Assembly: GCA_947501275.1 (NCBI GenBank)
Contig: CANMVD010000001.1
Coordinates: 1,550,001-1,614,000 of the forward strand
Reading direction: 5' to 3'
From: an uncultured Tateyamaria sp.
GTDB taxonomy: Bacteria; Pseudomonadota; Alphaproteobacteria; Rhodobacterales; Rhodobacteraceae
DNA: 64,000 bases
The notes under the pieces were generated by a model that ran no database searches, had not been told where the DNA came from, and was given only the letters and a program-made list of their open reading frames with translations. The translations under genes and the position numbers were made by a program. Positions 25,173 through 40,483 of the stretch are shown here, in pieces; positions within the stretch are counted from its first letter, which is position 1; each line of letters starts with the position of its first letter.

Positions 25173-26018
25173 ATGCTCAAGTTTTCGCAATTTTTGACAG
25201 TCCTATTGCTGGCATTGACAGTCACCATTGCCCCGGTTCGATTTGCCATAAAACCAAATGGTTCACTGACAATTGAGCTACCAATGGCTCTGGCCAAAGA
25301 TGGCGATGACGGTGAGGGAGACGATGGCGAAGGGGATGACGGCGAAGGAGACGATGGCGACGATGGAGATGATAGCGAGGGTGATGACGGCGAAGGGGAT
25401 GATGGAGAAGATAGCGAAGGAGACGATGGCGAGGGCGACGACGGTGACGATGGAGATGATAGCGATGAGGACGATGCGGATGATGATGAAGGCGAAGACG
25501 ACGATGAAGACGATGATGAAGACGGGGAGGTGGACGACGACGATAACGATGAAACAAATAGAGCTTCGCCAAGTAATCGAAGCGTTTCCCCCGACGGAGG
25601 CTCATACAAACCAAGTGGCGCCATTTCCCGAATAGAAGTTTCCAGTTCTGGAATTAAGATCAGATATGCAAATGGTGCACGCGAGGAAATCGAGAATGGC
25701 CGGTACCGTGTTCGTGACGAAAACGGGCGACGCGTGGTGCAGCGTCGTGCAACTGGCCCCGACGTTGTAAGGCTGCGCGCGCTTTCGGAACGCGTCTCGA
25801 TCCAGAGCGTCGTAGGTCGCCGCCAGCCTGGGTCTGCCATCGAAGGTGTGGTCACCCAAAGGAATTCCGTGACCATAACTTATGCAAATGGATGGACGGA
25901 AACACTGCAACGCAATTCATATACGCTCAAAGACCCTTATGGTCGGACAGTTGTGATGCGCCCAGCGACCGGTCAAGACAAACGGCGATTAGGCCGTATT
26001 GCGCAGCAGAACCGATAG
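25173..26018 (+). CDS. Secreted acidic repeat protein with duplicated C-terminal domain
   Basis: A 281-residue protein starting MLKFSQFLTVLLLALTVTIAP, a probable signal sequence or anchor. Residues about 42-126 are a run of GDDGE/GDD repeats, encoded by a degenerate 15-base tandem repeat (about 25306-25550). The C-terminal half holds two copies of a small module: IRYANGAREEIENGRYRVRD with GRRVVQRRATGPDVVRL, then ITYANGWTETLQRNSYTLKD with GRTVVMRPATGQDKRRL. These may bind polyanion or cell wall, and the acidic run cations. It converges on a two-component system 3 bases away. Confidence 0.75.
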   Translation: MLKFSQFLTVLLLALTVTIAPVRFAIKPNGSLTIELPMALAKDGDDGEGDDGEGDDGEGDDGDDGDDSEGDDGEGDDGEDSEGDDGEGDDGDDGDDSDEDDADDDEGEDDDEDDDEDGEVDDDDNDETNRASPSNRSVSPDGGSYKPSGAISRIEVSSSGIKIRYANGAREEIENGRYRVRDENGRRVVQRRATGPDVVRLRALSERVSIQSVVGRRQPGSAIEGVVTQRNSVTITYANGWTETLQRNSYTLKDPYGRTVVMRPATGQDKRRLGRIAQQNR

Positions 26019-32395: not shown

Positions 32396-32836
32396 TTAAC
32401 GCTCACGATGCATGTCAACAGCGTCTTTGGGGCACTTGAAGCGGCTAATAGGAATCTCCGCAATACAGGTAATTTCGACAAGTAGTCTCGGATCATAGAG
32501 AGATGAAACCTCCAGAGTTGTCGTGACAGGAAAGGGGGCGTCGAAATAGGTGGCGCGAATGTCTCCGCATTGCATGAAAGCCTGAATATCCGTGGTGAAT
32601 TGCTGGATTGAGACGATATCACTCGTACTCCCGCCTACTGACGCAAGGATGGCCGAGACATTCTTGAGTACTTGCGCCACCTGCGCACGCATATCACCTT
32701 CACCGACCACATTCCCGTCGGGATCAAGCGCGACCTGTCCTTTGAGATACAGAGTTTGTCCTGTCCCTGCGATGACGGCTTGGGAAAATGCACCAAATGG
32801 CTTCCACAAGCCGGGTGGGTTGAAGCTTTTTGCCAT
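32396..32836 (-). CDS. RidA-family protein
   Basis: A 146-residue member of the Rid (YjgF/YER057c/UK114) family, usually trimeric enamine/imine deaminases or relatives. Landmarks are YLKGQVALDPDGNVVGEGDMRAQ, NVSAILASVGGSTSDIVSIQQF and DPRLLVEITCIAEI, whose Arg is the carboxylate-binding residue of active RidA. The tail after EIPIS is longer than usual. It is followed downstream on the same strand by nothing coding and is 62 bases from a LysE gene. Confidence 0.88.
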   Translation of the reverse strand: MAKSFNPPGLWKPFGAFSQAVIAGTGQTLYLKGQVALDPDGNVVGEGDMRAQVAQVLKNVSAILASVGGSTSDIVSIQQFTTDIQAFMQCGDIRATYFDAPFPVTTTLEVSSLYDPRLLVEITCIAEIPISRFKCPKDAVDMHRER

Positions 32837-32898
32837 GCTTTGTTCCTTTTTGCCGAGAATGGATAACGGGCCACTTTGTGTGTGGCTGAGATGCTGGA

Positions 32899-33531
32899 TT
32901 ATCGCTTGAAACGCGGGTCATAATCGGCAGTGGCATCGACCACGATTTTTGCCCCCAAAACGATAAATATAACGCCAATGGCGCGGTTGATCACTAACCC
33001 ATACCGTAAGAAACCGTATCGGATCGCTGGCAGTCCTGTCCAAAACACCACCAAGGCTGTCGCTACAATGAACCCACAGAATGCCGCGATCACCAGAAAG
33101 GTGGCGTTGCCAATCACCAACGTGCCCTCAAACCGGCTGAGCACGGAGGCAAACATCGCTATGGCGAAGGGGTAGGCCTTGGGATTGGTGAGTCCGAAAA
33201 TGAGACCACTGCGCCAGGGATTGACGACCAACGGCGCCGTGGTGGTTTGGGAAGAGATCCACGCCCGTCCACCCAAATAGATCAGGTACATTCCACAGAT
33301 CATACCAAGCGCCTGAAACAATGCAGGGCCCAAATATGAGGTTCCAATGATGGCAGCAATGGCCAGGCTCGCCCAAAACAGATCGCCCAGCAGGTGACCG
33401 ACCAAGAACGTGCAACACGTGCGGCGGCCTTTCGTTGCCGACAGGTTCAGGGCGGCCAATGTCGCAGGGCCAGGGATCAGCACATAGGCCATGCCCGCCA
33501 GGAGGGTTGTGAGGAAGACGTCGATCTGCAT
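32899..33531 (-). CDS. LysE-family amino acid exporter
   Basis: A 210-residue inner-membrane exporter with about six TM helices. The diagnostic AYVLIPGPATLAALNLSATKGRR lies near the N-terminus, and GMYLIYLGGRAW and FGLTNPKAYPFAIAMF are family motifs. Substrates are usually amino acids or homoserine lactone-like compounds. The ATG at 33531 (MQIDVFLTTLLAGM) is chosen over 33579. It is divergent from an HxlR regulator whose paired operator is 61 bases upstream of this start. Confidence 0.88.
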   Translation of the reverse strand: MQIDVFLTTLLAGMAYVLIPGPATLAALNLSATKGRRTCCTFLVGHLLGDLFWASLAIAAIIGTSYLGPALFQALGMICGMYLIYLGGRAWISSQTTTAPLVVNPWRSGLIFGLTNPKAYPFAIAMFASVLSRFEGTLVIGNATFLVIAAFCGFIVATALVVFWTGLPAIRYGFLRYGLVINRAIGVIFIVLGAKIVVDATADYDPRFKR

Positions 33532-33591
33532 GGGGTAAGCACGGCGTTTAAGACGGGAACCTTGGAAGGTGAATGACAACGATGTGTCCAG

Positions 33592-33636
33592 ATGCTACCC
33601 TATGAATAGCGCAGAATGCTACATAAAAGATAGCGC
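33592..33636. promoter_or_regulatory. Paired HxlR-type operators before hxlR and lysE
   Basis: Two copies of ATGCTAC-N7-ATAGCGC at 33592-33612 and 33616-33636, 24 bases apart centre to centre. The core is the dyad GCTAY-N7-RTAGC. The second copy ends at the Shine-Dalgarno of the HxlR gene, so binding should repress it. Confidence 0.75.
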
Positions 33637-33649
33637 AAGGAGGTCTTCT

Positions 33650-34012
33650 TTGACCATCAAAATACCACTGCCCGGCGAACCGGTTCGAGGGTCAAAAACA
33701 GGCAGGCCGGTGATGGCGCTCTTTGATTTGTTGGGGCGTAGTTGGGCCCAAGGTATCATCTGGCAACTTGCCCCTGCGCCATTGACCTTTCGCAAACTGC
33801 AGCAGGCCTGTGATGACGTGTCGCCGACGGTATTAAACAGACGGCTCGGGGAGCTGCGTGAAGCGGGCTTTGTTGAGCACCTCGGCCAAGGTTACGGTCT
33901 GACACCGCTTGGTCAGGACCTGTTTAAACAGATGCAGCCGCTGGATGCGTTTTCGCACCGATGGGCAGACGCAGTTCAGGCAAAAGAGTCTTCCGTCATC
34001 CCGTCAAAATAG
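33650..34012 (+). CDS. HxlR-family transcriptional regulator
   Basis: A 120-residue winged-helix regulator (LFDLLGRSWAQGIIWQLAPAPLTFRKLQQACDDVSPTVLNRRLGELREAGFV). The start is TTG at 33650, because AAGGAGG at 33637-33643 is ideally placed; the ATG at 33602 lies inside the operator repeats. It has no Cys in the DNA-binding part, so redox sensing of the YodB kind is unlikely. Its last 17 bases overlap the end of the convergent EamA gene. The same operator pair occurs in front of the EamA and OsmC genes. Confidence 0.88.
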   Translation: MTIKIPLPGEPVRGSKTGRPVMALFDLLGRSWAQGIIWQLAPAPLTFRKLQQACDDVSPTVLNRRLGELREAGFVEHLGQGYGLTPLGQDLFKQMQPLDAFSHRWADAVQAKESSVIPSK

Positions 34013-34874
34013 TGCCTACACCCAAGAACGAAACGACAGCGCCCAATACGCTGCGGGCACTTGGGCGCCGGCGGTATTTGATCCACAGCACGGGCAATAC
34101 CAGCACTGGTGATAGCGACCCCAAAACGGACGCCACAACAGTTTCCATATGCGCCATCGCATACAGCAACAAGGACGAACACAACACATACCCCAAGAGC
34201 CCGGGAAACGCGGTTTGCCCAATCAATTGAGGGGTGAGTGGTGTCTCCAAGCGAAACCGTGCGCCAATCATGACCCAAGCCAGCGATATAACTGCCGCCG
34301 CCCCTGAAAGACGCAGGGCAGTCAAGGCAAGCGGGGCGGCGCCAGCTTCCAACGCGGGTTTGACCACCAAAAACCCGACGCTTTGGCTGGCCGTGGCTAG
34401 AACGCCAAGCGCGATGACCTGCCACAGTGGCGCGTCATATGCAGTCTCTTGCTGATCAGGTGCGATGGCCAGGATAATTCCTGTCATGACGATCACAGCC
34501 CCGATCGTTTCATTCAGGCTTGGTAATTCTCCGAACCAAAAATAGGCGGCCACTCCGATAGAAAGGGGTTTCAGCGAAAGCAACAACTCAGCGCGGCGCG
34601 GTCCACCAAGGCGCAAGCAGCCCATCATCGCGAGGTTGCCGACCACGATGCCAATGACCGAGCTGATGACATACGCGCGCCATTGTCCGGCGTCGATGCT
34701 GACCCATAAGCCAAACGCACTGCTGAGCGCCATGGCTGTCAACGCACAGATGATCAACTGCACATGCGTGAACCTGAACGCGCCCAAAAGCCGCGCGGGC
34801 CGCTCGGCGAAAACGATCCCAGTAGCCCATCCAAGCGATGCCAGTAGGGCGGCGCTCCCTGCCAATAGCGACAA
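33996..34874 (-). CDS. EamA-family (DMT) transporter
   Basis: A 292-residue protein with about ten TM helices in two EamA halves (residues about 5-138 and 150-290). Features are GNLAMMGCLRLGGPRRAELLLSL in the first half and ETVVASVLGSLSPVLVLPVLW in the second. The start appears to be TTG at 34874, preceded by AAGGGGA. One of the paired operators ends 16 bases upstream of this start. It probably exports a metabolite or toxic compound controlled by the HxlR protein. Confidence 0.88.
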   Translation of the reverse strand: MSLLAGSAALLASLGWATGIVFAERPARLLGAFRFTHVQLIICALTAMALSSAFGLWVSIDAGQWRAYVISSVIGIVVGNLAMMGCLRLGGPRRAELLLSLKPLSIGVAAYFWFGELPSLNETIGAVIVMTGIILAIAPDQQETAYDAPLWQVIALGVLATASQSVGFLVVKPALEAGAAPLALTALRLSGAAAVISLAWVMIGARFRLETPLTPQLIGQTAFPGLLGYVLCSSLLLYAMAHMETVVASVLGSLSPVLVLPVLWIKYRRRPSARSVLGAVVSFLGVGTILTG

Positions 34875-34889
34875 CCTGAATTTCCCCTT

Positions 34890-34935
34890 GCTACTTTTTG
34901 TGTAGCATGTCTATATCTGCTATTGAAAGAGTAGC
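34890..34935. promoter_or_regulatory. Second pair of GCTAY-N7-RTAGC operators
   Basis: GCTAC-N7-GTAGC at 34890-34906 and GCTAT-N7-GTAGC at 34919-34935, in the 85-base divergent promoter between EamA and OsmC. Same half-sites and N7 spacer as the pair at 33592-33636, so the HxlR protein probably controls both. Confidence 0.75.
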
Positions 34936-34959
34936 AAGTGTATTGTCACGGGAGCCAAA

Positions 34960-35424
34960 ATGGCACACGCAACGCATGACGCGACGATCGAATGGTCGTT
35001 GGATGGCGCGGATTTCGCGAAGGGCAAGTACACGCGCATGCATATCTGGAGCTTTGATGGTGGCGCGCGTATCCCGGCCTCTGCCGCACCACAGATCGTG
35101 CCCGTGCCTTATTCAGATCCTGGCTCTGTCGATCCTGAGGAAGCCTTTGTCGCGGCCATTGCGTCATGCCACATGCTTTGGTTTCTCAGCCTTGCGCAAC
35201 AGCAGGGCCTCATTGTCCTCACCTATCTCGACCGGGCTCAGGGACGCATGGAGCGGACAGATGCCGGGGTGTCCTGGGTCAGCACCGTGACCCTACGGCC
35301 CAAGATACAAGTGTCCGGAGACCAGCCCGGCCCTGACGTATTGGCACGACTGCATTCTGCAGCGCACGCACAATGCTACATCGCGAATTCACTCAAGACC
35401 TGCATAGAAATTCTGCCGGAATAA
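34960..35424 (+). CDS. OsmC-family peroxiredoxin
   Basis: A 154-residue OsmC/Ohr-fold protein. The peroxidatic cysteine is in AAIASCHMLWFL (Cys70) and the resolving cysteine in AHAQCYIANSL (Cys139). Arg and Glu of the active site are probably in GGARIPASAAP and DPEEAFVAA. Such proteins reduce organic hydroperoxides. It heads an operon with three exporters, 25 bases before a LysE gene, and sits under the paired operator. Confidence 0.9.
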   Translation: MAHATHDATIEWSLDGADFAKGKYTRMHIWSFDGGARIPASAAPQIVPVPYSDPGSVDPEEAFVAAIASCHMLWFLSLAQQQGLIVLTYLDRAQGRMERTDAGVSWVSTVTLRPKIQVSGDQPGPDVLARLHSAAHAQCYIANSLKTCIEILPE

Positions 35425-35449
35425 GCTATGCGCTGCGGGTCCTTTTCAC

Positions 35450-36058
35450 ATGTTGACTGAGGCAACCTGTAGTCTCCCATTGGCATGGTCAGCCCAGGCT
35501 CTCGGGGCGCTGTCGCCGGAACCAAGTGCAGCTTTAGTATTGGAGCTGGCAACACCGCAGGCGCGCGCGGTGGCATGTGGCTCAGTTGTCCTTGCAAGTG
35601 CAACGGTGTCAGGCGCCACCATAGTTCTCGCACAAAGCGAAGACGTACTGACCGCTTTTCGGCTCATCGGCGCCGGATACCTCTTTTTGTTGTCTTGGAA
35701 AACGCTTCAACCTACGTTCAGCACCCTTTCCGCCTCAGCAAGTATTCAATCACCACATACCTCGTTTGGCACAGTGTCGATCCAGAGCGCGGCTTTGCAA
35801 CTCAGCAATCCCAAGGCAGTCTTGTTCTGGTTGCCCGTTGCAAGCATCAGCGGTGTCGCTGACGCTCCTGCAAACACGGCGTTCCTTTTCGTTCTTGGTG
35901 CGACTCTGGTGTTGTTCCTGTGCCACGAAAGCTATGCAATCGCGGGGCCCAGCAAGCAGATGCGCCGCATGACGGCACGCGTTGAGTGCACTGGTGGCAT
36001 CGTTCTAGCTTTGGCATTTGCCGGGGCAGGGCTTCAGTTGCTGGTGTCTGGCAAATGA
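35450..36058 (+). CDS. Divergent LysE-family exporter
   Basis: A 202-residue membrane protein. LysE landmarks are present but altered: the usual PGP of the N-terminal motif reads SPEPSAALVLELATPQ, then GAGYLFLLSWKTL, LSNPKAVLFWLPV and a final helix. The first TM is short and not very hydrophobic. It sits in the OsmC operon and its stop overlaps the start of the next EamA gene by four bases. Substrate unknown. Confidence 0.78.
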   Translation: MLTEATCSLPLAWSAQALGALSPEPSAALVLELATPQARAVACGSVVLASATVSGATIVLAQSEDVLTAFRLIGAGYLFLLSWKTLQPTFSTLSASASIQSPHTSFGTVSIQSAALQLSNPKAVLFWLPVASISGVADAPANTAFLFVLGATLVLFLCHESYAIAGPSKQMRRMTARVECTGGIVLALAFAGAGLQLLVSGK

Positions 36059-36951
36059 TTTCCCCGGCCATCAAGTTGCGCATAGCGGTTGCGATCGCAC
36101 TCTCGGTCCTGTCCTGGGCCGTGACCTTTCCAATGATTACCTTTGCTGTGGTCTATATCGACCCAATCGCGTTGGCGGCCGTGCGATTTACATTGGCCGG
36201 GATAGTTTGCCTAATCTGGTTGCTTGCGATGCGGGCAAAAGCCCCGCTGCGACAGGATTTTGGCACGCTGCTGATCTTTGGGATCACTGGCACTTTTCTC
36301 TATAACATTCTGCTGAATGCCGGGCAGCGAACGATTTCGCCGGGTGCGGCGAGTTTCATCATTGGGACGGTGCCCGTTCTGACGATGCTGTTGTCGTGGA
36401 TGTTTCGCAAGGAACGCATTGGCAAGCGGGTGTGGTTTGGGGCGGCTGTGTCGCTGTGCGGCGTGGGCTTTATTGCAAGCGGGCAACCGGGTGGATTTTC
36501 GTTTGGCTCGGGGGTCAGTCTGGCCTTTGGGGCCGCAGTGTCATCCGCGGTCTTTTTCATGGTGCAGCAGCCTTTGGTTCGGCGATACGGGGCACTGACC
36601 TGCACGGCCTACGCGGTTATCATCGGAGGTGTTTTGTTGCTGCCGTGGCTGGGAACGGGCCTGCGCCAGATGCTGTCACAACCAACCAGCACCGTGCGTA
36701 TTCTGTTTCCGGTGATAGCGTTTATGGCGTTGTTTTCCGCGTTTTTTGCGCATGCATCCTGGGCTTATGTGGTGAACCAGCTTGGGCCATCGGTTGCCGC
36801 GCGCTTTCTCTACCTGACGCCTCCCACGGCCTTGATCCTCGAGGTGATCTGGACGCGCACGTGGCCGGGGAGCCTGACGGTTATCGGGGGCGCATTGGCC
36901 GTCATCGGTGTCGTACTGGCCACGTTGCCGCAGGGCGTATACTCGAAATGA
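36055..36951 (+). CDS. EamA-family (DMT) transporter
   Basis: A 298-residue ten-TM protein (first half VLSWAVTFPMITFAVVYIDPIALAAVRF; ILLNAGQRTISPGAASFIIGTVPVLTMLLSW; second half LGPSVAARFLYLTPPTALILEV). The ATG at 36055 overlaps the LysE stop (ATGA), so translation is coupled. It is followed 16 bases later by another EamA gene. Probably an exporter of small metabolites. Confidence 0.9.
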   Translation: MISPAIKLRIAVAIALSVLSWAVTFPMITFAVVYIDPIALAAVRFTLAGIVCLIWLLAMRAKAPLRQDFGTLLIFGITGTFLYNILLNAGQRTISPGAASFIIGTVPVLTMLLSWMFRKERIGKRVWFGAAVSLCGVGFIASGQPGGFSFGSGVSLAFGAAVSSAVFFMVQQPLVRRYGALTCTAYAVIIGGVLLLPWLGTGLRQMLSQPTSTVRILFPVIAFMALFSAFFAHASWAYVVNQLGPSVAARFLYLTPPTALILEVIWTRTWPGSLTVIGGALAVIGVVLATLPQGVYSK

Positions 36952-36967
36952 CAATCGGGCAGGTTTC

Positions 36968-37822
36968 ATGACACGGCTTGCCCCATTTTTGTTTGTCGTC
37001 CTCTGGGCGTCCGGCTTTGTCGGCGCACAGGCGGGCATGCCGTACGCAGAACCGGGCACATTCCTGTCGCTCCGGTTTGCTTTGGCCTTTGGGGTGCTTG
37101 CCGCCTTGTCCTGGCTGATGCGCGCGGCACCCTTGTCAAGGCAGCAAGTCCTGTCCTCGGTTCTGGTGGGGATGTTGGTGCACGGTATCTATTTGACCGG
37201 TGTTTTCTGGGCAGTGCGACATGGGATGCCACCCGCAGTCGCCGCAGTGGTCGTCGGGCTTCAGCCGTTGCTGACGGCCCTGCTGGCGGCTTGGTTTTTG
37301 AAAGAGCCGATGACCGTGCGGCACGGTTTCGGGTTTGTTTTGGGCTTTGGGGGCGTTGTGCTTGTACTGGCTCCCAAGCTGGATGTAACGGGCTCCGGGA
37401 TCAATACCGCAACGGTCACGGTGGTCCTGATATCCTGTTTAGCCATCGCATGCGGCACGGTGTTACAGCGTGCTGCGGGGGCGAAGACTGACCTGCGATC
37501 TGGCATGGCAGCCCAGTACCTTGGTGGATTACTTCCGCCCGCGATCCTGATGCTGTTTGAGACCCGCGTGGTGATCTGGAGCGGAGAACTCGTCTTTGCC
37601 TTCGTCTGGCTTGTCTTCGTCCTTTCGATCTTTGCTGTGATGCTCTTGATGTGGTTGATCAATCGCGGCTCTGTCATGCAGGTCGGTGCGCTGTTTTTCA
37701 TGGTACCGGGGGTGGCGGCGGCGATGAGTTGGCTGATATATGGCGATGCGCTCAACGCGGTCCAAGTTTTGGGAATGGCGATGACAGCTGTTGCAATCTG
37801 GCTGGTACAACGCACGGTCTGA
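36968..37822 (+). CDS. EamA-family (DMT) transporter
   Basis: A 284-residue ten-TM protein starting FLFVVLWASGFVGAQAGMPYAEPGTFLSLRF, the classic EamA first helix. Also YLTGVFWAVRHGMPPAVAAVVVGLQPLLTALLA, and MVPGVAAAMSWLIYGDAL in the second half. The ATG at 36968 follows GGGCAGG. Last gene of the OsmC-LysE-EamA-EamA unit. It converges on a YdcZ-type gene with a possible shared terminator between. Confidence 0.9.
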   Translation: MTRLAPFLFVVLWASGFVGAQAGMPYAEPGTFLSLRFALAFGVLAALSWLMRAAPLSRQQVLSSVLVGMLVHGIYLTGVFWAVRHGMPPAVAAVVVGLQPLLTALLAAWFLKEPMTVRHGFGFVLGFGGVVLVLAPKLDVTGSGINTATVTVVLISCLAIACGTVLQRAAGAKTDLRSGMAAQYLGGLLPPAILMLFETRVVIWSGELVFAFVWLVFVLSIFAVMLLMWLINRGSVMQVGALFFMVPGVAAAMSWLIYGDALNAVQVLGMAMTAVAIWLVQRTV

Positions 37823-37844
37823 CGCAAGCCGTATCAGGCGCTTG
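37823..37844. terminator. Inverted repeat between convergent transporter genes
   Basis: GCAAGC (37823-37828) and GCTTGC (37839-37844) flank a 10-base loop exactly between the two stop codons, followed by TTTGC. Weak two-way terminator candidate. Confidence 0.4.
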
Positions 37845-37850
37845 CTTTGC

Positions 37851-38315
37851 TCAGTGGTTTTGCGTTTTTGCCAAGACGGCCACTCCCAGGATCACAAGGC
37901 CCATCCCGAGGCCAGTCGCCAAAGTGAATGGTCGTTCTTTCAGGCCGAACGCCCCAAAATGATCGAAAATCGCGGCGCCGACCAGGTTGCCTGTCACCAC
38001 GAGAACCAGAAATACGGTTACACCCAGAACTGGGATGCTCTGCATTGAAATCACGACATGCATGGCTCCGATCATACCGCCCAGCCAAACCCATCGCGGC
38101 AGTTGTCCTAACGCCTCGAAAGTCAGCGTCCGAAAGCTTCCACTCGCGAGGGTGAGGAGACCCGACACCAATGCCGCGCTGAGAAAAGCGAGGAAAACAG
38201 ACAGCAGATAATCTCGGCCCAGCCCCTCGGCCAATCGGGCGTAAATTGGCCCTTGGGCTGCCACCAGTACGCCACCCAACACGGCAAGTAGGCTATAGAT
38301 CAATACCGTCGGCAT
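37851..38315 (-). CDS. YdcZ/DUF606-type DMT transporter
   Basis: A 154-residue five-TM half-size transporter. Typical stretches are LAVLGGVLVAAQGPIYARLAEGLG, PRWVWLGGMIGAMHVVISMQSIPVLGVTVFLVLVVTGNLVGAAIFDHFGAFGL. Such proteins usually work as dimers. It is the third gene of an XRE-GNAT-YdcZ unit, starting 6 bases after the GNAT stop. Confidence 0.88.
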   Translation of the reverse strand: MPTVLIYSLLAVLGGVLVAAQGPIYARLAEGLGRDYLLSVFLAFLSAALVSGLLTLASGSFRTLTFEALGQLPRWVWLGGMIGAMHVVISMQSIPVLGVTVFLVLVVTGNLVGAAIFDHFGAFGLKERPFTLATGLGMGLVILGVAVLAKTQNH

Positions 38316-38321
38316 CGCGGC

Positions 38322-38855
38322 TCACAGATATCTGTACATGTAGGTGGTCGCGTGCCGTCGACTGCCGTCCGGATCATAGGCAAAGTCGGGAATGACTCCC
38401 GCCTCTTTGAATCCAACGCTGCGGTAAAGCGCTTCGGACACGTCGCCCGTGCGCGTATCCAGTGTGATCAACGTCTTGTCCGCCTTTTTGGCGGCGTCCA
38501 GTGCAGCGTGCATCAACGCTGTTCCTACACCGCGCCGTCTGCCGCGGGGATGTACGATCATCTTTGAAATCTCGGCGCGGTGCCGTTGATTGGGAGGCAT
38601 AGCCAAAACCACCTGAACAGTGCCAATCAAGTCTTCCCCGACAAAGGCACCAAAAAGCTTTTTGTGACCTGTTTCTACTCCGGATTTTACATCTTTTTCC
38701 CAGAATGCTTTGGCCTCGGCGATGTTCAGCGGTGCCATAAAGCTGATCGCGGCGCCGCCCGCGACACTATCAATCAAGATGGCGCACAGCTCGGCAAGAT
38801 GGGAATCCAGATCTTCTGTTCCAAGGCTGGAAATTGTGATGCCGGTCGGGGTCAT
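38322..38855 (-). CDS. GNAT-family N-acetyltransferase
   Basis: A 177-residue acetyltransferase. The acetyl-CoA loop is HRAEISKMIVHPRGRRRGVGTALMHAALDAA (R/Q-x-x-G-x-G/A), followed by LYRSVGFKEAGVIPDFAYDPDG. The last part resembles acetyltransferases with the end HATTYMYRYL. The ATG at 38855 overlaps the stop of the XRE regulator by four bases. It may inactivate a compound exported by the adjacent transporter; the link is inferred from the operon. Confidence 0.88.
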   Translation of the reverse strand: MTPTGITISSLGTEDLDSHLAELCAILIDSVAGGAAISFMAPLNIAEAKAFWEKDVKSGVETGHKKLFGAFVGEDLIGTVQVVLAMPPNQRHRAEISKMIVHPRGRRRGVGTALMHAALDAAKKADKTLITLDTRTGDVSEALYRSVGFKEAGVIPDFAYDPDGSRRHATTYMYRYL

Positions 38856-39412
38856 TTTAGTGCGATCACATAGGTGCATGCGGTGTTGCCCGTTCGAAAA
38901 ACGGTTTCCCCGAACAATACATAACGCAAGCAATCGCCTGCCTGCATCGCATGAACCTTGCCCTCTATTGAAATCTCGATTTGGCCTGACAAGACATAAA
39001 CGTGGTGTTCTTGTCCGGGGATGGCCGGAGCGGTGTACGTGATTTCCTGATGTGGCTCGAATGTGCCCTCAATCAATTCGACGGCAAGTGGCCCGCTGGG
39101 CGGTGATACACTCCGGCGCTGAAAGCCATTCCTTGGATCATGCCAGACCGTTTGATCCGCCCTTGAGATCACGGGTTGAAACACCTGTTCCATCGGCGCC
39201 AAGAGGCGTGAGATCGGCAAGGCGTAGACCGTGGCCAGCCGTCCAAGCGTTTCTGCGGTCGGGCTTACTTCCGCGTTTTCGATGCGCGAGAGGGTTGCCC
39301 GGCTGATCCCACTTTTTTGGGCAAGCAGGGCCAATGTCATCTGATGTTGTGCACGCAGGTCGCATAAATGAGCAGCCAGATGCGTCGAGTTTTGTGTGTC
39401 AGTGATTCCCAT
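38852..39412 (-). CDS. XRE-family regulator with cupin domain
   Basis: A 186-residue regulator. HTH residues about 12-66 (LRAQHQMTLALLAQKSGISRATLSRIENAEVSPTAETLGRLA) and a C-terminal cupin near 110-180 (GQEHHVYVLSGQIEISIEGKVHAMQAGDCLRY). The cupin senses a small ligand. The ATG at 39412 is chosen by homology; a palindrome directly in front suggests autoregulation of the XRE-GNAT-YdcZ operon. Confidence 0.88.
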   Translation of the reverse strand: MGITDTQNSTHLAAHLCDLRAQHQMTLALLAQKSGISRATLSRIENAEVSPTAETLGRLATVYALPISRLLAPMEQVFQPVISRADQTVWHDPRNGFQRRSVSPPSGPLAVELIEGTFEPHQEITYTAPAIPGQEHHVYVLSGQIEISIEGKVHAMQAGDCLRYVLFGETVFRTGNTACTYVIALK

Positions 39413-39413
39413 A

Positions 39414-39431
39414 TACGGAATATTTCCCGTA
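39414..39431. promoter_or_regulatory. Palindrome at the start of the XRE operon
   Basis: TACGGAATATTTCCCGTA, an imperfect palindrome with TACGG/CCGTA arms, ends 2 bases before the XRE start codon (minus strand). This is a likely self-binding site that would block transcription or initiation. Confidence 0.55.
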
Positions 39432-39856
39432 AATGAGTTCCGCGTCAAGGGCCTACGCTCTTGGGCAGGCAACCTGAGCAAAAGGCTTCGTCAGCCCGGT
39501 GATTGGGTTTGATATCCCGAAAGACTTTCTACGAGTGGCGCTTCAGGGCGCGCGCTATTTCCCTAACGGGAATCTGGGGGACCAGATCTCGATCTTATGG
39601 CGTTCTGGCTGCGAATGTCGTTGGGTAGGGGGGCTGTGTTCGCAGCATTCGGACGTCGTAATCAACGTCGAATGCAGACCGCCTTCATCAGGAGGGTCAG
39701 CACCTGCTATCAAGATGCTGAAGTGTCTCCGGTGGCGGCAACGAGCAGGCTCGCTCCGGTCTTTCGTCATGATGCAGCGAACGTATGTCTCCGAGACTTG
39801 TCATTCCTGACATCCTGTGGATTGCTACAAGCCCACGAGTTTTTGGAGACACCAGA
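39432..39856. other. Non-coding stretch before a LysE gene
   Basis: About 425 bases with no credible gene. The last 60 bases carry GGAGACACC before the exporter ATG. Open frames here lack homology. Confidence 0.35.
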
Positions 39857-40483
39857 ATGATCGACCCCGCAGTATTGCTAACCTATTCGTTGATCGTTCT
39901 TGGCTTTGTTTTCATTCCCGGGCCCGCAACTCTTTTAACGGTTGCACGAGCCACAACTTCTGGAACGAAAGTCGGAATTGCGACTGGAGCAGGCATTACC
40001 GCGGGCGACTTTCTGCATACTATCATGGCTGTGGTTGGTATCTCGGCCATCATTGCGGCATCTGCCACACTGTTCACCATCGTGAAATACCTTGGTGCCG
40101 CGTATTTGGTGTATCTTGGTTTGAAGGCGATCTTTGAGAAGACCTCGGTGGATCTTGGCCAGGGTCGCGTCTCGATCACGGCATCTCTCGCCTTCAGGCA
40201 GGCGATCCTTGCCGAAGTTCTAAATCCCAAGACCGCTTTGTTCTTTCTTGCGTTTCTGCCGCAGTTTGTCGTCCCAGAGAAGGGATTTGTGGTCCTACAG
40301 CTTACGACTCTTGGAATCGTATTCGCCCTGATCGGTTTCTTCAGCACAATCGTCTATTCCGTTGCTGCAGGTGGTCTGGGCATCTTTCTGCGCCGTAATC
40401 CGGCTGTCCTGAAATGGCAGGGCAAGGTTGTTGGTAGCATTTATTGCGCTCTGGGAATTCGGCTCGCGCTGCAGGAGAGATAA
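39857..40483 (+). CDS. LysE/RhtB-family exporter
   Basis: A 208-residue six-TM exporter. The diagnostic LGFVFIPGPATLLTVARATTSG is at about residues 14-35; YLGAAYLVYLGLKAIFEK and LNPKTALFFLAFLPQFV are typical RhtB motifs. Probable amino acid or derivative efflux. The ATG at 39857 follows GGAGA; the longer frame from 39785 is rejected. It stands alone. Confidence 0.9.
   Translation: MIDPAVLLTYSLIVLGFVFIPGPATLLTVARATTSGTKVGIATGAGITAGDFLHTIMAVVGISAIIAASATLFTIVKYLGAAYLVYLGLKAIFEKTSVDLGQGRVSITASLAFRQAILAEVLNPKTALFFLAFLPQFVVPEKGFVVLQLTTLGIVFALIGFFSTIVYSVAAGGLGIFLRRNPAVLKWQGKVVGSIYCALGIRLALQER

Follow-up and report, generated by a model that had tools for sequence, protein, structure and literature searches.

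In a 64,000-nt stretch of DNA (hereafter the window), the palindrome GCTAY-N7-RTAGC stands in front of a gene for a small HxlR-type regulator and recurs between two divergent genes of the EamA and OsmC types. This arrangement raises the question of which protein acts on the sites and which genes come under its control. The first-pass annotation of the window had tied all of the sites to the HxlR-type protein and had proposed a regulon of lysE, eamA and an osmC-lysE-eamA-eamA series.

Exact matches to GCTAY-N7-RTAGC (GCTAYNNNNNNNRTAGC) were found at only four places in the window, which form two pairs at the positions and spacings first described, with start-to-start distances of 24 (pair 1) and 29 (pair 2). 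Pair 1, made up of putative operators 1 (GCTACCCTATGAATAGC, 33594-33610) and 2 (GCTACATAAAAGATAGC, 33618-33634), lies 16-56 bases ahead of the likely hxlR start, inside the gap between hxlR and the divergent lysE (ATG at 33531). Pair 2, made up of putative operators 3 (GCTACTTTTTGTGTAGC, 34890-34906) and 4 (GCTATTGAAAGAGTAGC, 34919-34935), lies inside the 85-base gap between eamA (start at 34874, minus strand) and osmC (ATG at 34960). No strand is assigned to any of the four palindromes. Upon shuffling the window 100 times, we obtained a mean of 0.03 exact matches per shuffle and a maximum of 1. The first-pass annotation had held that a motif frequent across the genome would speak against a regulon; the whole genome (4,608,369 bases in 22 contigs) contains these four exact matches and no others. 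The pattern read backwards matched 50 times in the same genome, but as it differs in composition, the shuffles are the better control. With up to one mismatch to the refined motif derived below (GCTAYNNWWWNNRTAGC), the genome has 15 sites, namely the four in the window and 11 others that are scattered on three contigs and form no further pair. A loose pattern with up to two mismatches gave 64 matches in the window versus 48.3 ± 6.8 expected, which is no clear excess, and therefore only the exact motif is informative. A scan of 33400-35050 for sigma-70-like promoters returned no match. Elsewhere in the window, the same 17 bases (ACGATGGAGATGATAGC) occur at 25360-25376 and 25447-25463, 87 bases apart, probably as parts of a repeated coding unit.

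The gene hxlR (33650..34012, plus strand) encodes a 120-residue winged-helix regulator of the HxlR/DUF24 type, and its likely TTG start at 33650 was chosen from the reading frame and the GGAGG immediately 5′ of it. Tail to tail with hxlR runs eamA1 (33996..34874, minus strand; Pfam EamA), encoding a 292-aa EamA/DMT-type exporter, and across pair 2 from eamA1 is osmC (34960..35424, plus strand; Pfam OsmC), encoding a 154-aa OsmC-like protein. Downstream of osmC on the plus strand, a 25-base gap precedes lysE2 (35450..36058; Pfam LysE), which encodes a LysE-type translocator and is probably co-transcribed with osmC. The EamA-type transporter genes eamA2 (36055..36951, overlapping the end of lysE2, with its ATG taken from the sequence) and eamA3 (36968..37822) both match Pfam EamA and are likely members of the same operon. 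A second gene for a LysE-type translocator, lysE (32899..33531, minus strand; Pfam LysE), diverges from hxlR across pair 1. We note that window positions 32396-40483 hold unusually many small-metabolite exporters: LysE-type at 32899, 35450 and 39785 (the last by eye), EamA-type at 33996, 36055 and 36968, and YdcZ at 37851, adjoined by a Rid deaminase (32396), a GNAT protein (38322) and an XRE-cupin-like regulator (38852).

The HxlR protein of the window matches the Pfam HxlR model (PF01638) over residues 27-108 with 28.3 bits against a cut-off of 20.8, while an NCBIfam search returned no match. Its predicted structure (mean pLDDT 93.9, pTM 0.83) has helices at residues 20-28, 33-40, 47-53, 59-71 and 86-115. 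The best structure matches are YodB, a C. difficile HxlR/DUF24 protein, QsrR, HypR and HxlR, placing the protein in the HxlR/DUF24 fold; the PDB matches also include MarR-like chains, T4 MotA among them. In the alignment of its relatives (A2), we observed a conserved N-terminal arm, PGxPVRGSxxGxPIM, in which 77/78 carry R13 and all carry V12, G14, S15, G18, P20 and M22. This arm marks the subfamily because the Pfam HxlR model begins only at residue 27. No Cys occurs within residues 1-31 in 77/78 relatives, the window protein included. The window protein accordingly carries neither the N-terminal reactive Cys of YodB/QsrR/HypR-type sensors nor the Cys-x-Lys of the B. subtilis HxlR type in helix alpha-1.

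Upon searching 295 genomes of the same family with the HxlR protein, we found matches at E <= 1e-6 in 39 genomes, 12 of them at E <= 7.3e-30; these 12 were taken as orthologues, and matches at E >= 9.8e-11 were treated as paralogues. The paired site (gap 4-24) is present in 11/295 family genomes, all of them orthologue carriers, and the twelfth carrier (G248) has a single exact site in the same place. The backwards control pattern gave scattered matches in the family genomes, in genomes without the regulator gene. Across the class, the regulator occurs in 33/385 genomes and the refined strict pair in 22/385, all within those 33. The hypergeometric probability of this co-occurrence is 4e-19 in the family and 5e-28 in the class, computed over genomes that are not independent. 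Of the 11 class genomes with the regulator and without the strict pair, nine each show one or more exact refined sites (G512 and G571 left out). Where the class genomes do have the strict pair, it is close to the gene for the regulator in 21/22. One genome, G503, has a strict pair in trans, on another contig and directly before an SMP-30-type gene, the type that adjoins hxlR in other loci.

A scan of 84,980 genomes yielded 394 confirmed relatives, of which the best 80, from eight phyla, were kept. Within 400 bases upstream of hxlR, where operator 1 has its equivalents, 72/80 have an exact site and 53/80 an exact pair. The exact-site counts among these best 80 are Pseudomonadota 51/54, Bacteroidota 7/9, Acidobacteriota 4/5, Thermodesulfobacteriota 4/4, Actinomycetota 3/3, Spirochaetota 2/2, Rokuibacteriota 1/1 and Myxococcota 0/2, where many of the relatives are bins and single phylum assignments may be wrong. 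The eight without an exact upstream site comprise two with one-mismatch sites (L108, L126), one with mixed sites (L138), two of a GCTT type (L120, L151), one that is GCTC/GCTT-like (L147), L152, whose contig extends just 91 bases upstream of hxlR, and L077, to which we return below.

We then combined the best 80 of the 394 relatives with six other loci and the window, giving 87 loci, some from close species. This set contains 147 sites in 40.5 kb of upstream sequence versus 5 in 966 kb elsewhere, and four of those five are the second pairs of L077 and the window. Although the search pattern leaves the three central bases free, 141/147 sites have A or T at all three, and we therefore refined the motif to GCTAY-NN-WWW-NN-RTAGC. 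Start-to-start spacing within pairs ranges from 17 to 47; 25 is the commonest (24/64 neighbouring pairs), with 19-20, 23, 26-28, 33, 37 and 45-47 also represented. This variation argues against one fixed dimer-dimer contact. A fixed helical phasing of the pairs was considered and rejected, as the spacings fit no single phase.

The exceptions to the GCTA site lead to a residue of the protein. Within A2, Pro59 is present in all rows but L120, L147 and L151, and these three loci are without GCTA sites; L120 and L151 have GCTT...AAGC instead. Among plasmid relatives (11 of 12 records covered), five Pro59 proteins go with exact GCTA sites and three non-Pro59 proteins with GCTT sites. With the rule already noted, we searched 398 phylum genomes: L218, the sole non-Pro59 protein that this added, goes with a GCTT site, and no new Pro59 locus has a GCTT-GCTT site. 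After removal of near-identical proteins, 148 loci could be counted. The 139 Pro59 loci divide into 128 with a GCTA core, 3 with mixed sites only, 8 without such a site and 0 with a GCTT core, and the 9 non-Pro59 loci into 6 with a GCTT core, 3 with neither type and 0 with a GCTA core. Requiring an A/T centre changes the Pro59 figures to 121 GCTA-core, 3 mixed and 15 none, and the difference between 128 and 121 is one T58-P59 group with C in the centre (e.g., L240-L246). A Fisher test of residue 59 against base 4 gave 2e-10 with kinship ignored; the non-Pro59 cases come from Myxococcota, Streptomycetaceae, Burkholderia and a single further genome and so represent no more than a few events, and the rule, seen in few lineages, was first noticed after the fact. 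Mixed half-sites make up 11/218 sites of Pro59 loci, showing that GCTT is tolerated on one side. The comparison thus shows that base 4 of the site varies with residue 59 of the recognition helix, and the window protein, with Pro59 and four GCTAY-N7-RTAGC sites, fits the proposed subfamily.

Two further arrangements were observed beside these. In a more distant group from the same phylum (L240-L246 and L248, family f193), the regulator carries T58-P59-N and Val54, and the only site upstream is of the GCTAYNAAAC type with C in the centre, a third operator variant. In L147, three overlapping arrays of GCTC/GCTT-type half-sites lie at -105 to -53 before an hxlR with Ala59, perhaps another variant.

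Taken across genomes, the comparison shows that regulator and site belong together and that the site is conserved, and we conclude that the HxlR-type regulator very probably binds the paired sites. The link drawn at first between one small HxlR-type protein and these sites is thereby borne out by co-occurrence, position, conserved sequence and the match of residue 59 with base 4. That the sites belong instead to a different regulator, a mobile repeat or an RNA hairpin is hardly tenable. Some pairs do form almost complete nested palindromes (e.g., G086, G127, G076), but the sites and hxlR co-occur across genomes and residue 59 tracks base 4. Over 58 pairs, moreover, the inner bases compared as inverted copies agree at 4.5 of 9 positions within a locus versus 3.9 between loci, and compared as direct copies they behave alike (4.3 versus 3.6). 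The nested-palindrome or hairpin reading was rejected, given that inverted similarity within loci is only slightly above the cross-locus level.

To which genes the regulator is attached was assessed by homology around the 87 loci. An EamA-type gene is divergent across the site in 47/87, and among the 11 other family genomes examined first, six have the eamA1 orthologue divergent from hxlR across the pair. A NudC-type NUDIX gene is just downstream in 14 loci and a 65-78-residue 4-oxalocrotonate tautomerase upstream in 8; the other partners are SMP-30 (6), DinB (4), DUF1330 (3), YCII (1), CMD (1) and LysE (1). In these counts one locus may appear twice, and five loci are without an assigned partner, including L077, which carries eamA and osmC at its second pair. 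Placed on a tree, the partners give at least 14 label changes, a rough figure that depends on target labels we assigned ourselves and on a poorly resolved tree (11/75 inner branches starred).

Several small genes near these sites deserve mention. The tautomerase gene is found upstream of hxlR in L086 (-302..-105), L095, L132, L138, L141, L144, L155 and L156. Most of these loci have their own sites before the tautomerase gene, spaced 19 (33 in L144), and some have an additional single site between it and hxlR. Between the site and hxlR in L093, ORFs of at least 40 aa were listed for a small gene, with nothing convincing among them.

Two loci are particularly informative for osmC. Ruegeria pomeroyi (L078) has the order eamA1 <- pair -> hxlR-osmC, and the nearest relative, a Sulfitobacter (L077), has hxlR -> <- eamA1 pair -> osmC, the order of the window, with a pair equivalent to operators 3 and 4. 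In L077, hxlR lacks a site in front of it, so that autoregulation is not universal; lysE genes are missing from this locus as well, including upstream of hxlR. We infer that the divergent eamA-hxlR order is the older one and that it was rearranged in the window, with an operator pair retained or acquired on either side. The gene tail that follows osmC in the window is absent from both loci, and the gene after osmC in L077 (1817..2779 relative to hxlR) is not homologous to it. By eye, that gene seems to encode a protein of the metallo-beta-lactamase fold with a twin-arginine-like leader, a further candidate target.

From this comparison, hxlR, eamA and osmC emerge as conserved putative targets, with eamA and osmC recurrent. 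The regulon first proposed therefore stands in part: eamA (divergent in 47/87 loci) and osmC (after hxlR in L078, after the pair in L077) gain support, while lysE and the lysE-eamA-eamA tail are possible targets by their position. As a conserved target, lysE was rejected, being without support outside the window. A narrower regulon, with control limited to hxlR, eamA1 and osmC and with lysE and lysE2-eamA2-eamA3 as chance neighbours, is doubtful in our view. It agrees with the homology test, which found a divergent LysE-type gene at the same place in none of the other 86 loci, and with the missing tail in L077 and L078. However, the gaps after osmC (25 bases, an overlap and 16 bases) suggest co-transcription, and pair 1 sits in the lysE-hxlR gap itself.

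We consider it highly likely that a widespread HxlR subfamily binds each palindrome as a dimer and represses exporters and osmC until an effector releases it; physical binding, dimers, repression over activation and effector release are what we infer. One dimer would bind each 17-base palindrome GCTAY-NN-WWW-NN-RTAGC, giving two dimers per pair, which is suited by the 7-base spacing common to the YodB operator (PMC8063818). Pro59, with which the recognition helix begins, would help set base 4 of each half-site, and the N-terminal arm PGxPVRGSxxG may, as a guess, contact the A/T-rich centre. Bound HxlR would cover the short promoter gaps and repress hxlR itself, eamA1 and osmC, and probably also lysE on the divergent side and the genes that follow osmC. 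HxlR would then be released by a small effector, either a ligand or an electrophile, so that exporters and OsmC are made.

Repression is our reading of the gap geometry, and occlusion of the promoters, none of which was recognised, is putative. The divergent eamA-hxlR gap has a median of 73 bases (46 loci), and where two strict sites lie inside it (33 loci) the share of the gap taken up by the pair has a median of 58%. Promoters clear of the pair would have little space, and occupancy of both sites should leave either promoter barely accessible to RNA polymerase. Repression cannot be taken for granted, because B. subtilis HxlR, the founding member of the family, is an activator, and formaldehyde increases its binding to DNA (PMC7835342). 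A protein that binds the sites and acts mainly as an activator in this manner, the effector increasing its DNA binding, would also account for sites far upstream, near -350 to -430, before the small tautomerase gene. We regard this as improbable: where eamA is divergent, the pair frequently reaches almost to the start codon, a position that, like the share of the gap it fills, suits blocking better, and the sensing Cys-Lys pair of B. subtilis HxlR is absent, with any Cys in residues 1-31 being confined to 1/78 relatives.

Cys54, just before the recognition helix, is present in 78/78 rows of A2 and is the sole Cys in 47. A thiol-based electrophile sensor acting through Cys54 would be in keeping with the detoxification-like partners OsmC, CMD, DinB and YCII, and with the related YodB and QsrR, which sense quinones by cysteines (PMC8063818). 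We nevertheless think it unlikely, since Ala, Ile, Thr or Ser replaces Cys54 in 12/121 loci with a strict GCTA site, and since the aligned position is hydrophobic in YodB and QsrR, so that Cys54 may be no more than a core-packing residue. The reading of Cys54 as an invariant redox sensor was rejected for the absence of this residue from those 12 loci of the wider set.

As to what releases the repressor, the partner genes hint at a small reactive compound that the cell exports and detoxifies. Our guess at the effector, more probably wrong than right, is a reactive carbonyl, a quinone-like compound or an aromatic metabolite subject to both processes. A broader reading, which we advance tentatively and at somewhat less than an even chance, is that the subfamily, across at least eight phyla, kept its paired operator nearly fixed while often exchanging its targets (EamA, LysE, OsmC, NudC-type NUDIX, small tautomerase, SMP-30, DinB, DUF1330, YCII and CMD). 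Pro59 would set base 4, the arm PGxPVRGSxxG would read the A/T centre via the minor groove, and a common signal would be sensed without the usual cysteine; the swapped targets together would therefore point to one shared toxic metabolite.

Relatives of the window gene in plasmid records are annotated merely as helix-turn-helix proteins, and a literature search of open-licence PMC papers, covering titles and the beginnings of abstracts, turned up no description of the subfamily or its operator. To our knowledge, few operators are known in the HxlR/DUF24 family. We propose a distinct HxlR/DUF24 subfamily with its own operator and its own N-terminal arm, lacking the canonical sensor cysteine. An anonymous helix-turn-helix annotation thus becomes a subfamily with a defined operator that any genome can be searched for: in 33/33 genome hits, the strict pair correctly foretold the regulator (11/295 plus 22/385, the window's genome being counted in both). 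The operator would allow direct prediction of regulons, including targets in trans as in G503, and the match of residue 59 with base 4 offers a compact specificity rule. Distant bacteria carry this combination of regulator and site next to other genes, and such repeated exchange of targets behind one operator may provide a route to the common effector of the DUF1330, YCII, DUF1989 and EamA families.

Among characterized systems, YodB of Bacillus subtilis, an HxlR/DUF24 quinone and diamide sensor, is the closest by fold, with a Foldseek TM of 0.91 across the YodB chain and 29% identity in 85 columns, and is also the best PDB match by sequence. YodB binds TACT-N7-AGTA (PMC8063818), a palindrome with the same 7 bases between half-sites, whereas the half-site here is GCTAY. 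The sensing Cys at the N terminus of YodB is absent in 77/78 relatives here, and the PGxPVRGSxxGxPIM arm is a feature of the window subfamily. In the alignment, the stretch between the wing strands is shorter in the window protein than in YodB and QsrR. The B. subtilis HxlR shares the Pfam family and the fold and also uses two neighbouring sites, while its targets are unrelated to those found here. It differs further in being an activator and in its Cys11-Lys13 sensing pair, absent here (PMC7835342). The third comparison is with QsrR of Staphylococcus aureus, a YodB-type quinone-sensing repressor that matches the window protein in fold and sequence. Its targets are other ones, and its sensing cysteine and operator differ from those here. 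In the alignment, QsrR also has a Pro where the window protein has Pro59.
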